From Armatimonadota bacterium (GTDB lineage: Bacteria; Armatimonadota; Armatimonadia; Armatimonadales; Capsulimonadaceae): a stretch of DNA of 36,311 nt. The position numbers and the translations under genes were made by a program. How positions within the stretch are numbered: position 1 is the first letter of the stretch; each line of letters starts with the position of its first letter. Shown here piece by piece: positions 8,854 through 14,784 of this stretch. The notes beneath the pieces were generated by a model. That model ran no database searches, was not told the DNA's origin, and saw only the letters and a program-made list of their open reading frames with translations. The stretch is taken from contig JAFAZD010000376.1 of assembly GCA_019239955.1 (NCBI GenBank), positions 1 to 36,311 of the forward strand, written 5' to 3'.

Positions 8854-9315
8854 TCATAGGCCGATGCCAGTCGGCGCGTTTTCCTCGCCCCGCATCTGCC
8901 GCAGAAGTGTCTCGTTATCAAAGTAGACGCGCTCCGCGATGAGTTGACCCTCATCTTCTCCCATGCCAAACAGGAAGAAGCAGGCCATTTCAATGGAAAC
9001 ACGCTTCCCCAGCGGCAGTGCGCCGGAATAGTCGCCTTGATGCGTACCTGATACAGTCAACTCGCGGATGGAACAGCCGGGGACATCGTAGGCGCTGTTG
9101 ACCCGGATTGTGACATCCGGCAGGGCGGTTGAAAGAATCTCGTAAGCCTGGGTAACGCCAGCCAGTCCCGGCAGCCGCGCGCTGAACGGCACGAGGTCGA
9201 AGAAGGCGTTGCCTGTCGCCGTGAACGTTTCCTGGACGGCCTGCCATTGGTGGGCATTCTCTAACCGGATATGCTGGTCCACCTTTTCACGCTGAAGTTG
9301 CAGAGGGTCTTTCAT
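8854..9315 (-). CDS. SnoaL-like/ester cyclase family protein
   Basis: HQWQAVQETFT...FDLVPFSARLPGLAGVTQAYEILSTALPDVTIRV, TVSGTHQGDYSG pattern. Confidence 0.7.
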   Translation of the reverse strand: MKDPLQLQREKVDQHIRLENAHQWQAVQETFTATGNAFFDLVPFSARLPGLAGVTQAYEILSTALPDVTIRVNSAYDVPGCSIRELTVSGTHQGDYSGALPLGKRVSIEMACFFLFGMGEDEGQLIAERVYFDNETLLRQMRGEENAPTGIGL

Positions 9316-9338
9316 TAGGAGCCTCCTGAAAATGAGAT

Positions 9339-10418
9339 TTAGGCGCGTGCCTCGAAGACCCGGTTGAAGGGCGTCTGTGTGGCGCGGCGGAAGCGGGTGA
9401 ACCCGCCTGCCAGAACGACATCGCGCAGCGCCTGATCCGAAGCCACCGTGCCGAGGGCAGGGCCTCCGGCGCAGATCGCGTTCGGCGTGCAGCAGAGTAC
9501 GGAGGCGGCGGAATAGACGCGGCCCACCGGATTGAAATTTTCCTCCGTGCGTTCGCCGGCCATCGGCTCCACGATCATCGCGGTCCCGCCGGGCGCGAGC
9601 GCGCCGCAGGCGCGCCGGGCCGCGCCAGTCGGGTCACCCATGTCATGGAGACAGTCGAAGAACGCGATCAGATCATAATCCGAGCCGGGAAACTCGGTCG
9701 CCTGGGCGACCTCGAAAGTCACCCGGTCGGCTACCCCCGCCTCCGCCGCCGCGCGGCGCGCCCGCTCAATGGAGGGCGCATGGTTGTCAAAGCCGAAGAA
9801 GCGGGAGTGTGGGTAGGCCCTTGCCATGATGATGGTGGAGGCACCGTGCCCGCAGCCCACGTCCGCCACTTTCGCCCCGGCGGTCAACTTTGTCTCCACG
9901 CCATCCAGGGCCGGAATCCAGTCGGAGACCAGGTGGGCCAGGTAGCTGGAGCGGAAGAATCGCTCGGTGCCTTCAAACAGTTCCGGGTCATGCTCGCCCC
10001 AGCACATTCCCTCACCGGTGCGAAACGCCTCGGTGATGCGTGGTTCGGCTTTCGCCAATGCCGTCACCAATTGGAACCCACCTCCGACGAAGAAGGGGCT
10101 GGCCTCGTCGGCCAGGGCGACCGCCTGCTCCGGCGGCAGATGATAGCGGCCCGCCGCCGGGTCGTACTCGATGTAGCCGCCGGCGGCCTGGTTGATAAGC
10201 CATTCGCGGACATAACGCTCTGCCGTGCCGGTGCGCTGCGCCAGTTCCGCCGACGTGAGCGGGCCGGCCTGCGCCATCGCCCGGTACAGTCCGAGTTTGT
10301 CGCCGATGTGTGCCAGGGCGGCGCTCATGGCGGCCCCGAAGTCACCGACCACCCTGCCCAGGAACGCCATCAATTTGGCCTCATCAGGGGGCGGCTGAGT
10401 TGTCTGCAGTGTGTCCAT
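9339..10418 (-). CDS. Class I SAM-dependent methyltransferase with N-terminal winged-helix dimerisation region
   Basis: GAKVADVGCGHGASTIIMARAYPHSRFFGFDNHAPSIERAR; winged-helix-like LTSAELAQRTGTAERYVREWL. Confidence 0.85.
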   Translation of the reverse strand: MDTLQTTQPPPDEAKLMAFLGRVVGDFGAAMSAALAHIGDKLGLYRAMAQAGPLTSAELAQRTGTAERYVREWLINQAAGGYIEYDPAAGRYHLPPEQAVALADEASPFFVGGGFQLVTALAKAEPRITEAFRTGEGMCWGEHDPELFEGTERFFRSSYLAHLVSDWIPALDGVETKLTAGAKVADVGCGHGASTIIMARAYPHSRFFGFDNHAPSIERARRAAAEAGVADRVTFEVAQATEFPGSDYDLIAFFDCLHDMGDPTGAARRACGALAPGGTAMIVEPMAGERTEENFNPVGRVYSAASVLCCTPNAICAGGPALGTVASDQALRDVVLAGGFTRFRRATQTPFNRVFEARA

Positions 10419-10454
10419 CTGACACCTCCTTCTCCCAAGCCTTGCGCTTCTCCG

Positions 10455-10817
10455 TCATTCATCCCAGGCCTGCACGTTCACCTGATGGATGATCTTTCCG
10501 TCTTGCAATTGCAGCATCGCCGCGCAGTAGACATGCGAGCCGCTCGGATATTCACAAACTTCAGTGAACGCCAGGCTGTCCGTTCCCACGACCGCCTGCT
10601 CAATCCGATGGGTCATGGCGCGGCCACAGATGTCATCGTAAAAGCGCCGGATCGCGGCTTGTCCCTGGATCTCCAGCGGCGCACTGGGCGTGTGGCTGCG
10701 ATCAATGACGCGCAGGTCCGCGTGTGGGGCGTAGAGGCTGGCGAGCAATGGGGCGTCGTTCTGCTCAATAGCGCGGCGCAAGGTCTCCGCGGCCTCCGCC
10801 GTCGTGGAACCATTCAT
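10455..10817 (-). CDS. SnoaL-like/NTF2-fold protein
   Basis: LRRAIEQNDAPLLASLYAPHADLRVIDRSHTP...GQAAIRRFYDDICG. Confidence 0.7.
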   Translation of the reverse strand: MNGSTTAEAAETLRRAIEQNDAPLLASLYAPHADLRVIDRSHTPSAPLEIQGQAAIRRFYDDICGRAMTHRIEQAVVGTDSLAFTEVCEYPSGSHVYCAAMLQLQDGKIIHQVNVQAWDE

Positions 10818-10832
10818 GGCGATCTCCTTTGT

Positions 10833-11129
10833 TCAGTCGTGCGGGAAGGTCTCGCCGCGTTCCGAACTGATCCAATGGCCCATTTCCTCCAATTTGTGCT
10901 TGGCGAGCGCCTGGCGGAACGGGCCGTTGGCATCGTCAACGACGGCATGATAGGCGGCTTCATCCTGATAGCCATGCACCACGACATAGTGGCCCTCGCT
11001 GCGGAAGGATTCGACCAGGACCACGCCCGGCTGCTGGCGCAGGACGGCGCGAACGTCGGGGCTGACTCGCTCAAATTCCTCCGCGCGGCCGGGGAGGGCT
11101 TCCCAGCGGGAAACAACAAGAAACATCAC
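10833..11129 (-). CDS. Antibiotic biosynthesis monooxygenase (ABM)-like protein
   Basis: MMFLVVSRWEALPGRAEEFERVSPDVRAVLRQQPGVVLVESFRSEGHYVVVHGYQDEAAYHA. Confidence 0.65.
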   Translation of the reverse strand: MMFLVVSRWEALPGRAEEFERVSPDVRAVLRQQPGVVLVESFRSEGHYVVVHGYQDEAAYHAVVDDANGPFRQALAKHKLEEMGHWISSERGETFPHD

Positions 11130-11402: not shown

Positions 11403-11723
11403 CTATCCTCCGGTGGGCTTGCGGGAGGAGGCGATCAATTGGAGCAGGTCGCTCACCTTGAGGTCCGCCACATTGCCCTCCGCGTCGACTCCCGCCGGCA
11501 AAGTCGGTGGGGAGATAGTTTGAGACGGCGGGCCTGCGGGGAGGGTGCGCCCCAGCAGCGTGAGCAGATCGCGCACCGACATGTCCACGACCTTTGGCTC
11601 GCCGGGCGCACCAGTGCTCGCCGGCTCAGGCGAGGCGGCTTTGGGGTCGGGCTTGGCAGCGTCCTCAGCCTGGGGCTTGGGAGCGGCCGAGTCTCCGCGA
11701 GGAGTGTTTCGTTTGCGCGCCAT
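11403..11723 (-). CDS. Small Pro/Ala-rich protein with two copies of the V-x-D-[LM]-x-V-x-D-L-L motif
   Basis: MARKRNTPRGDSAAPK...KVVDMSVRDLLTLLGRT...NVADLKVSDLLQLIASS; start assigned to MARKRN. Confidence 0.65.
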   Translation of the reverse strand: MARKRNTPRGDSAAPKPQAEDAAKPDPKAASPEPASTGAPGEPKVVDMSVRDLLTLLGRTLPAGPPSQTISPPTLPAGVDAEGNVADLKVSDLLQLIASSRKPTGG

Positions 11724-11749
11724 GGGGTTCCGTCCTTTCTCAGAGATGG

Positions 11750-11777
11750 GTAGGGGCATGGCGCGCCATGCCCCTAC
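11750..11777. repeat. Perfect 28-bp palindrome
   Basis: GTAGGGGCATGGCGCGCCATGCCCCTAC equals its own reverse complement. Confidence 0.95.
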
Positions 11778-11803
11778 GGACACTGCCTCGGACGACAGAG
11801 GGC

Positions 11804-12508
11804 TTAACCCTGACCGCCCGCCTGCGATGCGGCCGCGGGCGCGGAGCCGGCGCCCTGCTGGAGAGCGGCGACCTGCTGCTCCAGGCCGCTGACGCGCTGA
11901 ATCAGGCTGTCAATGCTCTGCTGGTCGCCTGGGTTGGTGTCCCCCGGCCGGTCATCGAGCTTCTCCAGGTCTTCCTTGACGGCTTCCTTGCCGACCTCCT
12001 TGACCTCTTCCTTGATCTGCTTTTCGATCTCCTTGAACTCCTTGATGTCTTCCTTGATGCGGTCCTTGATCGTGTCCTTGATGCCGTCCTTGCTGTCCTT
12101 ATGGTCCTTGGTGTCCTTGGTGTCCTTGTGGTCTTTCGCCTGCTTGTGGTCCGGGGTGTCCTTCTGATCCTTGTGTTCTTTTTGATCTTTCTGGTCCTTG
12201 GTGTCCTTGGGCTCCTTGTGATCCTTCTGGTCCTTGGTGTCCTTGTGGTCCTTCGGCTCCTTGTGGTCCTTGGTGTCCTTGGCGTCCTTCTGTTCCTTGT
12301 GCTCCTTGGTCGGGAGTTTGTCCGGGACATCCTTGATCTGCTTCTCCACGACCTGCTTCTCCACGACCTGTTTCACTGGGGGATTGGCGGACGTACTCTT
12401 GCCGAGGACATCGGAGAGTTGGCGCACGGACAGATCGCCGACCTTGGAGTTCAAGTCAACGGTCAGGTCCGGGCGGCTCTGGGGGTCAATAAAGGGCTCG
12501 TTAGCCAT
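11804..12508 (-). CDS. Lys-Asp/Glu-X triplet-repeat protein, candidate substrate of the adjacent ATP-grasp ligase
   Basis: AGGAGG upstream of ATG 12508; residues 68-142 are K-[DE]-X triplets (KEHKEQKDAKDTKDHKEPKDHKDTKDQ...), followed by an IKD/IKE helical segment and a coiled-coil-like SIDSLIQRVSGLEQQVAALQQ. Confidence 0.75.
   Translation of the reverse strand: MANEPFIDPQSRPDLTVDLNSKVGDLSVRQLSDVLGKSTSANPPVKQVVEKQVVEKQIKDVPDKLPTKEHKEQKDAKDTKDHKEPKDHKDTKDQKDHKEPKDTKDQKDQKEHKDQKDTPDHKQAKDHKDTKDTKDHKDSKDGIKDTIKDRIKEDIKEFKEIEKQIKEEVKEVGKEAVKEDLEKLDDRPGDTNPGDQQSIDSLIQRVSGLEQQVAALQQGAGSAPAAASQAGGQG
12083..12307 (-). repeat. 9-bp-period coding minisatellite encoding K-[DE]-X
   Basis: About 25 in-register 9-nt units (tccttggtg / tccttgtgg on the + strand). 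Confidence 0.85.
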
Positions 12509-12583
12509 CGTGAGTTCCTCCTGCCGGCGGTCATCGCCGGCGCTGTGAGCGGAATGGGACCGGCCCGATTGCCGGTCGTGGGA

Positions 12584-13516
12584 CTACCCCGGGGTGCCGC
12601 GCAGCAGGTGGGCCACCGCCTCGCTGATTGACTGCCCGGTCGCGCGTTCGTAAAAGATAAAGCCCGGGGACGGGTTGATCTCAAAGCAGTAGTAGCGGCC
12701 CTCCGGCGTCCGCCGCAGGTCCACGCCGGAGAGGTGGAGGCCCAGGGAGCGCGCGAGGCCGAGGCAGGACTGCGCCACGGCGTCGGGAATCTCCGTCTCC
12801 TCCAGCGACAGGTCCGCGCCCTCGCGGCGCGCGTAACGGTAGTCGTGGGCGTCGGAGCGAATCTCGGTCGCAAACACCTTGTCGCCGACGGTGTGGACGC
12901 GGAGATCCACGCCCTCAACGCGCTCCTGAAACTGGGTCGGGCAGTTGCGGACGCGCTCCAGGCGCTCCCCCAGGTCCTCTTCGGTCAGGCGGCGCACGAT
13001 GGAGCGGACGCCGGACAGCGATTTGTAGATGACCTCCCCGTGATGCGCCTCATAGAAGGCGCGGGCCGCGTCCGGGTCGGTCGTCACCAGTGTCTCCGGC
13101 GTGAGCAGGCCGAACTGTTGTGCCAAGAAACCCTGATAGACTTTGGAGTCGTTGCTGACCGAGGCCCCGGCGCGGTTGACGACGGTGCAGGGCAGCAGTT
13201 CCAAAAGCTGCATCAAGGAGAGCTGGTACTCGGCGTCCACCAACTGCTTCTCGTGCTCGGAGAACTCGGGACGCTCCGGCCCACCTTTGTAGCTGACGTA
13301 GCGGGCGTAGGCTCCGGTCAGGTCGGCGAGATCTACCGCGCCGCCCGGCGACTCGATGCGGCCCCGTAGGCCGTCCGGGCCAAGCTCCCAGGACAGGTCG
13401 TAGCGCCCGGGGAACTGAGCCTGGTCCAGAAACAGGTACTCGTAGCCCAGGTCTTCCAAACGGGCGCACATCAGCTCGGTCATGCCGTCGGCCAGGACGC
13501 CGCAGACGAGAATCAT
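12584..13516 (-). CDS. RimK/MvdD-like ATP-grasp ligase
   Basis: GEVIYKSLSGVRSIVRRL, CPTQFQERVEGVDLRVHTVGDKVFATEIRSDAHDYRYARREGAD, YYCFEINPSPGF. Confidence 0.8.
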   Translation of the reverse strand: MILVCGVLADGMTELMCARLEDLGYEYLFLDQAQFPGRYDLSWELGPDGLRGRIESPGGAVDLADLTGAYARYVSYKGGPERPEFSEHEKQLVDAEYQLSLMQLLELLPCTVVNRAGASVSNDSKVYQGFLAQQFGLLTPETLVTTDPDAARAFYEAHHGEVIYKSLSGVRSIVRRLTEEDLGERLERVRNCPTQFQERVEGVDLRVHTVGDKVFATEIRSDAHDYRYARREGADLSLEETEIPDAVAQSCLGLARSLGLHLSGVDLRRTPEGRYYCFEINPSPGFIFYERATGQSISEAVAHLLRGTPG

Positions 13517-14406
13517 GCTGCCTGTCCTCCTTTGCCGGTGAGCAGTGCAACCAGATGCCCCACGATCTCCTCACGGGCGGCCGGGCCACACGCATAGAGC
13601 TGCGGCATCCGATCCAACGCCAGGCAGTACCAATCGCCCCCGGCCCGTTCCACGAGAGAGAGCTGGAAGAAGGTCAGCCCCAGGTGCGTCCCGACCTGGA
13701 GGCAACGATCAACAAGGGAGGCGGGCGCGGAACCGGCCGCCGTCCCATCCGCGCCGACCAGCGTGACCGTGTTGCCGACCACGAACGCCTCCATGGCTCG
13801 CCCATCAAGCGCCTCCGTCAGATGCAGCGGCAGAGCGCCGCTCAGCGCCGTCAGCTTCTCCAGGTCGTCCTCATCGCGGATCGGGTACGGCGCCGACCCG
13901 CTCAGCGCGGCGTAAGTGACGGGGCCGGCGAGGCGTCGGCGGAAGGCGCGGGCCTCCTCGGCGCGCGTCGTCACCAGTATGCGAGGACGCGCAAAGGGCA
14001 GGTCGGGCATGAGGGCGCTCAGGGCGGGCACGTTGAGCCGCGTCTTGTACCACAGGTCAGGCTGTAGGCGGTTGATGACGGGGCAGGGCAGCGGGCGCAG
14101 CCAGGCCATGAACAGCGCGTTCCATTCGGCGCAGATGTAGCGCCCGTCCTGCGTCTGAAACTCTTCGGCGGGAAGGGGCATCCCATAGAACCGGTACAGG
14201 ACGCCGTCCAACTCGGCGAACCGCGCCTCCTGGCCCCGGAAGCGGACGCCGCCCCCGCCGTCCGCCGGCGTCCAGGCGAGCGACATCTCCGGCAGGAGCT
14301 GGTCTTCGGGCAGGAACAGGACCTTCCGCCCGTCACGCCGCAACGCCTCGGCCACTATCTGACCGCATAAGTCTTCGTTGCGGCCCAGGATCAGGATCGC
14401 GCCCAT
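13513..14406 (-). CDS. Degenerate ATP-grasp-like protein (probable pseudoenzyme partner)
   Basis: Same overall layout as 12584-13516 (PCPVINRLQPDLWYKTRL, ARPRILVTT, VTYAALSGSAPYPIRDEDDL) with catalytic-site changes; ATGA overlap with the downstream ligase gene. Confidence 0.65.
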   Translation of the reverse strand: MGAILILGRNEDLCGQIVAEALRRDGRKVLFLPEDQLLPEMSLAWTPADGGGGVRFRGQEARFAELDGVLYRFYGMPLPAEEFQTQDGRYICAEWNALFMAWLRPLPCPVINRLQPDLWYKTRLNVPALSALMPDLPFARPRILVTTRAEEARAFRRRLAGPVTYAALSGSAPYPIRDEDDLEKLTALSGALPLHLTEALDGRAMEAFVVGNTVTLVGADGTAAGSAPASLVDRCLQVGTHLGLTFFQLSLVERAGGDWYCLALDRMPQLYACGPAAREEIVGHLVALLTGKGGQAA

Positions 14407-14448
14407 CGGGCCTCCCCGACCTCTCGCACACGGAGGCCGTGATCGAAA

Positions 14449-14700
14449 TCAATCCCTTGAGGTCGGCGCGAGAACGAGATCGTATCGGCTGGCGATTTCC
14501 AGTATCCGCGCCATATCCGGGGGCCGGGGGCAGCGCGTCCAGCTCCGCGAAGAATCGCGCAAAGCCCCCCGGCGTAATGATTACCAGGAAGGTGCCGCCG
14601 TGTCCCCGACATTCACGAACGTGCGTAGGCTGCCCTTCGGCGAGTAAACACAGGTGCCCGACCCTGCGGCAATACGGTCGCGCGGGAAGGTTGATCGGCG
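14449..14700 (-). pseudogene. Frameshifted cupin-domain protein remnant
   Basis: Minus-strand frames stitch to RDRIAAGSGTCVYSPKGSLRTFVNVGDTAA / FLVIITPGGFARFFAELDALPPA / PPDMARILEIASRYDLVLAPTSRD*, with two frameshifts at C-rich runs. Confidence 0.65.
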
Positions 14701-14739
14701 GTAGGCACGGGCGGGTGGCTCCTCAGATGGTCTGCGACC

Positions 14740-14784
14740 ATTATAACACGGCCTGCCTGCTATTGTCTATACCCTTTTAGGGTA
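14740..14784 (-). promoter_or_regulatory. Promoter of the ATP-grasp operon with adjacent palindromic operator candidate
   Basis: Reverse strand TAGACA (14769-14764), 18 nt, TATAAT (14745-14740); TACCCTTTTAGGGTA inverted repeat at 14770-14784 abuts the -35. Confidence 0.6.

Follow-up and report, generated by a model that had tools for sequence, protein, structure and literature searches.

A graspetide-type ligase and its catalytically dead partner beside a Lys-Asp/Glu repeat protein in an Armatimonadota bacterium

Gene organization of the locus

The window analysed here is the whole 36,311-nt stretch of contig JAFAZD010000376.1 (assembly GCA_019239955.1) from an Armatimonadota bacterium. The four genes described here lie on its minus strand, namely a degenerate ATP-grasp protein (14406-13513, 297 aa), an intact ATP-grasp ligase (13516-12584, 310 aa) that overlaps it by ATGA, a K-[DE]-x repeat protein (KD protein, 12508-11804, 234 aa) with AGGAGGA upstream as a ribosome-binding site, and a small protein (11723-11403, 106 aa). 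A promoter-like site (TAGACA-18-TATAAT, with TG before the -10) is located at 14769-14740 (-) and has 11 of 12 consensus matches; three promoter-like sites were found, against 0.3 in shuffles. The next one lies beyond the last gene at 11348-11320, and no terminator-like site on the minus strand separates the four genes. The original observation of four minus-strand genes was confirmed by the sequence, and they follow one promoter-like site. Between the promoter and the first gene (14430-14620, -), the reading frames look by eye like a frameshifted cupin remnant; however, short fragments gave no Pfam hit.

The KD protein contains several features. A leader-like motif, PFIDPQSRPDL, is located at residues 5-15 (12496-12464), and is followed by the segment VGDLSVRQLSDVLG at residues 23-36 (12442-12401). 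The K-[DE]-x tract, which is the proposed site of modification, covers residues 68-184 (12307-11957), and a coiled-coil-like segment, read directly from the sequence, covers residues 198-218 (11917-11855) and is also seen beside the motif in the tails of other loci. The 117-aa tract holds 35 K, 23 D and 15 E with 32 K[DE] dyads, whereas 10,000 shuffles of its own letters gave a mean of 11.4 and never exceeded 20. The protein had been described as almost purely alternating Lys and Asp/Glu; the pattern is K-[DE]-x triplets rather than strict alternation. Among 3,788 six-frame ORFs in 444 kb of DNA, only the KD protein and eight cassette proteins from homologous loci reached 8 K[DE] in 60 aa.

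The KD and small proteins share a V-x-D-[LM]-x-V-x-x-L-x-x-[LV]-[LI] motif (1 of 5,000 shuffles scored as high), represented by VGDLSVRQLSDVLG in the KD protein. It occurs twice in the small protein, at 11550-11591 and 11430-11471 (0 of 5,000 shuffles). No counterpart of the small protein was noticed in any other locus, and therefore its proposed place as a conserved component of the system was not supported. A perfect 28-bp palindrome, GTAGGGGCATGGCGCGCCATGCCCCTAC, lies between these two genes (11750-11777). It was found 38 times, with up to 2 mismatches, in the 5-Mb genome, and some copies have matching changes in both arms (REP-like). The next minus-strand gene group (8854-11129), behind its own promoter-like site at 11348-11320, encodes an antibiotic-biosynthesis-monooxygenase-like protein, two SnoaL-like proteins and an Rv2258c-like methyltransferase. 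A PADLOC search for defence systems gave nothing convincing.

The intact ligase and its degenerate partner

NCBIfam profile searches placed the intact ligase nearest to TIGR04187 (E 2e-44), followed by MvdD, MvdC and only then RimK, although all scores were below the curated cut-offs (152 vs 350 bits for TIGR04187, 123 vs 475 for MvdD, and 104 vs 425 for MvdC). A profile of its clade matched PsnB (E 4e-44), PruB, MdnC, CdnC and AMdnB. The predicted structure (pLDDT 88) fits MdnC, AMdnB, PruB and PsnB at TM about 0.8, above RimK at about 0.68. The residues K125, K165, R206, D266, E279 and N281 are invariant among ten members of the clade. These results place the enzyme with the graspetide macrocyclases, and the description of the ligase as RimK-like holds only as distant relatedness. 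The Pfam RimK domain is above its cut-off (33.9 vs 21 bits); however, TIGR00768 scores 66.8 vs 143.4, and the phylogenetic tree separates the two with 100/100 support. RimK glutamate ligases also belong to the ATP-grasp superfamily and act on protein carboxylates, and RimK matches appear here at lower scores; nevertheless, tree, profile and fold all favour macrocyclases, and it is therefore very unlikely that the ligase adds amino acids to Glu/Asp or to the C-terminus in the RimK fashion.

The partner matched the ligase clade by profile comparison over nearly its full length (E 2.9e-15), and its model (pLDDT 65, poorly predicted in the middle) retrieved graspetide synthetases first. Relative to the ligase, pairwise alignment gave K125R, K165A, R206E, D266S, E279A, N281D and loss of the SDAxDYRYA segment. 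Similar partners precede the ligase in nearly all loci of the clade, although that of locus L015 is partly masked and that of L070 is cut short. These indicate that the partner is a retained pseudo-enzyme with the same fold rather than a decaying copy; a complex with the ligase is inferred.

A phylogenetic tree of 31 rows was reconstructed, in which the clade (14 rows, without locus L103) is supported at 97/94 and is separate from TgmB, MvdC/MvdD and the ligases linked to M43 proteases. Actinomycetota, Alphaproteobacteria and Armatimonadota are mixed within the clade, which suggests horizontal transfer. The genome of the window is in the same phylum as two other genomes (G079 and G121), whose contigs match Chthonomonas and Armatimonadetes records.

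Homologous loci and the leader-like motif

A scan of genome contigs, surveys of three taxonomic groups and scans of viral contigs gave fifteen distinct loci of the ligase clade, window included, from Armatimonadota, Actinomycetota, Alphaproteobacteria and one viral-collection contig. The neighbouring proteins include M6-type proteases (L015-L020 and L022; Pfam E 6e-16 for L018), a trypsin-like protein (L071), a protein with a weak S8 hit (L075, E 0.008), kelch or galactose-oxidase-like proteins (L021, L023 and L076), and a DUF6519 protein (L103, the viral-collection contig), whereas L070 has no tail protein. Clade members were found in 3 of 398, 3 of 387 and 3 of 292 genomes in the three surveys; this rarity is approximate, because the genome contig scan used two peptide patterns. 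The usual order is putative substrate, dead partner, live ligase; in the window the putative substrate follows the ligase, and outside it the tail is fused to proteases or kelch proteins.

The neighbouring protein carries the leader-like motif (PFIxxELRPDL or variant) in twelve of the fifteen loci. Ten of these also have a Lys-Asp/Glu tract, and one further kelch locus has the tract with a weakened motif, so that the tract stands next to the ligase pair in 11 of 15 loci from three phyla. The tract is dense in the window, the seven M6 proteins, L071, L076 and the Chthonomonas kelch protein, and missing or weak in L075, L023 and L103. The refuting condition set beforehand, ligase homologues that consistently occur without the KD-repeat protein, was thus examined and did not refute the KD link. 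The subtilase-like protein of L075 (2162-3550, -) joins a coiled coil and the RPDL motif without a KD tract and is short in the catalytic domain, which might be an assembly collapse or a real deletion.

The PFIDPQSRPDL motif of the KD protein matches PFIGxELRPDL near the end of the M6 and trypsin-like tails, FITQEMRPDL in the S8 one, and FIRPEERPEV or FIRADERPMI in L076 and L103. The pattern FIx(3,4)RP[DEM] occurred 17 times in 6,671 six-frame ORFs, including 12 substrate proteins, two repeat reads of the same genes, and three others. Graspetide leaders were reported to carry a Phhx motif, and PFFARFL to contact the ligase (PMC8939145); PFIxxxxRPDL fits Phhx, and the motif is a probable leader, whereas its recognition by the ligase is inferred. 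The motif lies before the tract in the window and after it in the others; a C-terminal leader is accepted by the engineered graspetide system of ThfB (PMC13003496). The one other DNA match in this genome (C331) encodes the motif only in a frame antisense to a longer plausible gene, and was judged to be a chance match.

As a control, 248 genomes were searched with the M6 domain of L018. One close homologue (57% identity, with the same N-terminal CAVAPSP segment) was found in genome G398; it ends without a tail, and that genome has only a distant ATP-grasp hit (2e-13). More distant M6 proteins, including plasmid copies from Phyllobacterium and Sinorhizobium, also lack tails, and no clade ligase was found in the flanks read, although this control set is small. 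For the kelch proteins, no second close homologue was found in 241 genomes.

The motif-bearing protein of L103 is DUF6519, named eBAP5, a fibre baseplate anchor of extracellular contractile injection systems (PMC12923769). It ends in FIRADERPMIAPPG, is in a row with a TIGR02243 baseplate gene, which precedes it, and a tail gene, and is followed by the dead and live ATP-grasp genes (L103 6310-10921). Injection-system genes were also found beside L019, where the cassette of Streptomyces triculaminicus abuts a convergent cluster with baseplate, tail and DUF6519 homologues. The tagged enzymes show no hydrophobic N-terminal segment, unlike classical M6 controls. The cassette might therefore serve contractile injection systems by modifying cargo or fibre proteins of phage-tail-like particles, with the stapled tail helping loading or stability. 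However, no such genes were found in the other flanks read (up to about 20-28 kb where contigs allow), in the window, or in 229 kb sampled from 20 contigs of its genome; the tailless M6 homologue also lacks a signal-like segment, which rules against a missing signal peptide as a consequence of the tail. This reading is only a lead and is considered unlikely. A search of open-access literature found no paper that joins ATP-grasp with M6 family metalloproteases or with extracellular contractile injection systems.

Proposed modification of the repeat tract

The operon is best explained as a graspetide-type protein-modification system. In this view, the intact ligase, probably in a complex with its dead paralogue, recognizes the PFIxxxxRPDL leader of the KD protein and uses ATP to activate Asp/Glu side chains of the K-[DE]-x tract, which nearby Lys side chains would attack to form many isopeptide (lactam) staples. 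The analysis itself establishes the gene content, the enzyme family, the catalytic residues kept in one protein and lost in the other, the shared leader-like motif, and the conserved association of the ligase pair with K-[DE]-tailed proteins; whereas complex formation, leader recognition, the chemistry and the biological role (a stiffened or protease-resistant tail or spacer, in this genome a stand-alone tail protein) are inferences. The KD protein is very probably the substrate of the ligase pair, which is well supported by association; dense isopeptide stapling of the tract is the likeliest chemistry, but no modification has been observed and this reading is only somewhat more likely than not. 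The original interpretation, that an ATP-grasp enzyme with a degenerate partner could crosslink or tag the repeat tract to give an isopeptide-stitched fibre or a modified polyampholyte, was therefore partly supported: the graspetide-type ligase, the dead partner and the association with repeats hold, whereas crosslinking of the tract and any fibre or material role remain unproven.

Across ten tails, Lys has an acid at +1 (152 vs 59), +4 (95 vs 56) and -2 (98 vs 58) more often than in shuffles. The +4 spacing is the KxxxD spacing stapled in corallotide (PMC13097080); however, it follows from the period of three and is not seen in the kelch tails, and is thus compatible with stapling rather than proof of it. 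A single alpha-helix reading of the tract was not favoured, since E(i)-K(i+4), the order usually held to stabilize helices, is depleted (24 vs 56) and the window tract is rich in D, H and T. It is also possible, although less likely, that the tract is only a charged spacer, and that the ligase pair installs one or a few crosslinks in or near the motif region, such as the AKRx[YF]D[ST] end of the M6 tails, which the repeats keep accessible. The motif is more constant than the tract (L075 and L103 have the motif with little or no tract), and the AKRx[YF]D ending is conserved among M6 tails; whereas the KD protein has no such ending, and repeats rich in Lys plus acid recur in tails of different sequence.

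The ligase shares its fold, catalytic residues and pre-ATP-grasp domain with the graspetide synthetases PsnB (plesiocin), MdnB/MdnC and MvdC/MvdD (microviridin), and TgmB (GRASP_SAV_5884), and the putative substrate likewise has a Phhx leader-like motif and Lys/acid residues. It differs from these in its separate clade, in the dead ATP-grasp partner, and in the putative substrates, which are a 234-aa repeat protein or the tail of a 50-100 kDa protein (up to about 1,000 aa) rather than a short precursor that releases a small peptide. No leader peptidase or exporter lies in the window operon. Corallotide (CorA/CorB, PMC13097080) also has a large (about 22 kDa) substrate with repeated Lys-to-Asp isopeptide staples and depends on a partner protein; whereas it has five spaced repeats and the oxygenase partner CorC, with no K-[DE]-x tract and no pseudo-ATP-grasp partner described.

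Graspetide enzymes are known mainly for small caged peptides. A clade that instead targets tails of full-size proteins, with a dead ATP-grasp partner and leaders naturally found C-terminal to the repeats, would be a natural protein-stapling system, as protein cyclization and C-terminal leaders have so far been engineered (PMC12291112, PMC13003496). It would explain the lysine-acid tails on secreted-type enzymes, and may reveal a modification in contractile injection systems. A more tentative possibility, rated as less likely than not, is a horizontally spread tail-stapling system, in which the live/dead ATP-grasp pair would densely crosslink Lys-Asp/Glu tails carried by proteases, kelch proteins, injection-system fibres or a free tail protein, guided by a portable leader that may sit on either side of the tail.

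Enzyme-borne tails of a similar kind were also seen outside the clade. The M43 metalloproteases of L072 (4984-6498, +) and L079 (4391-5998, +) are secreted-type proteases with C-terminal nucleophile/acid repeats (KFRDDPVGT, or T..D units) and a PFVLxTPHHS motif next to a graspetide-type ligase. This ligase groups with MvdC/MvdD and no dead partner was seen, and the two loci are apparently an independent case of graspetide-like tails.
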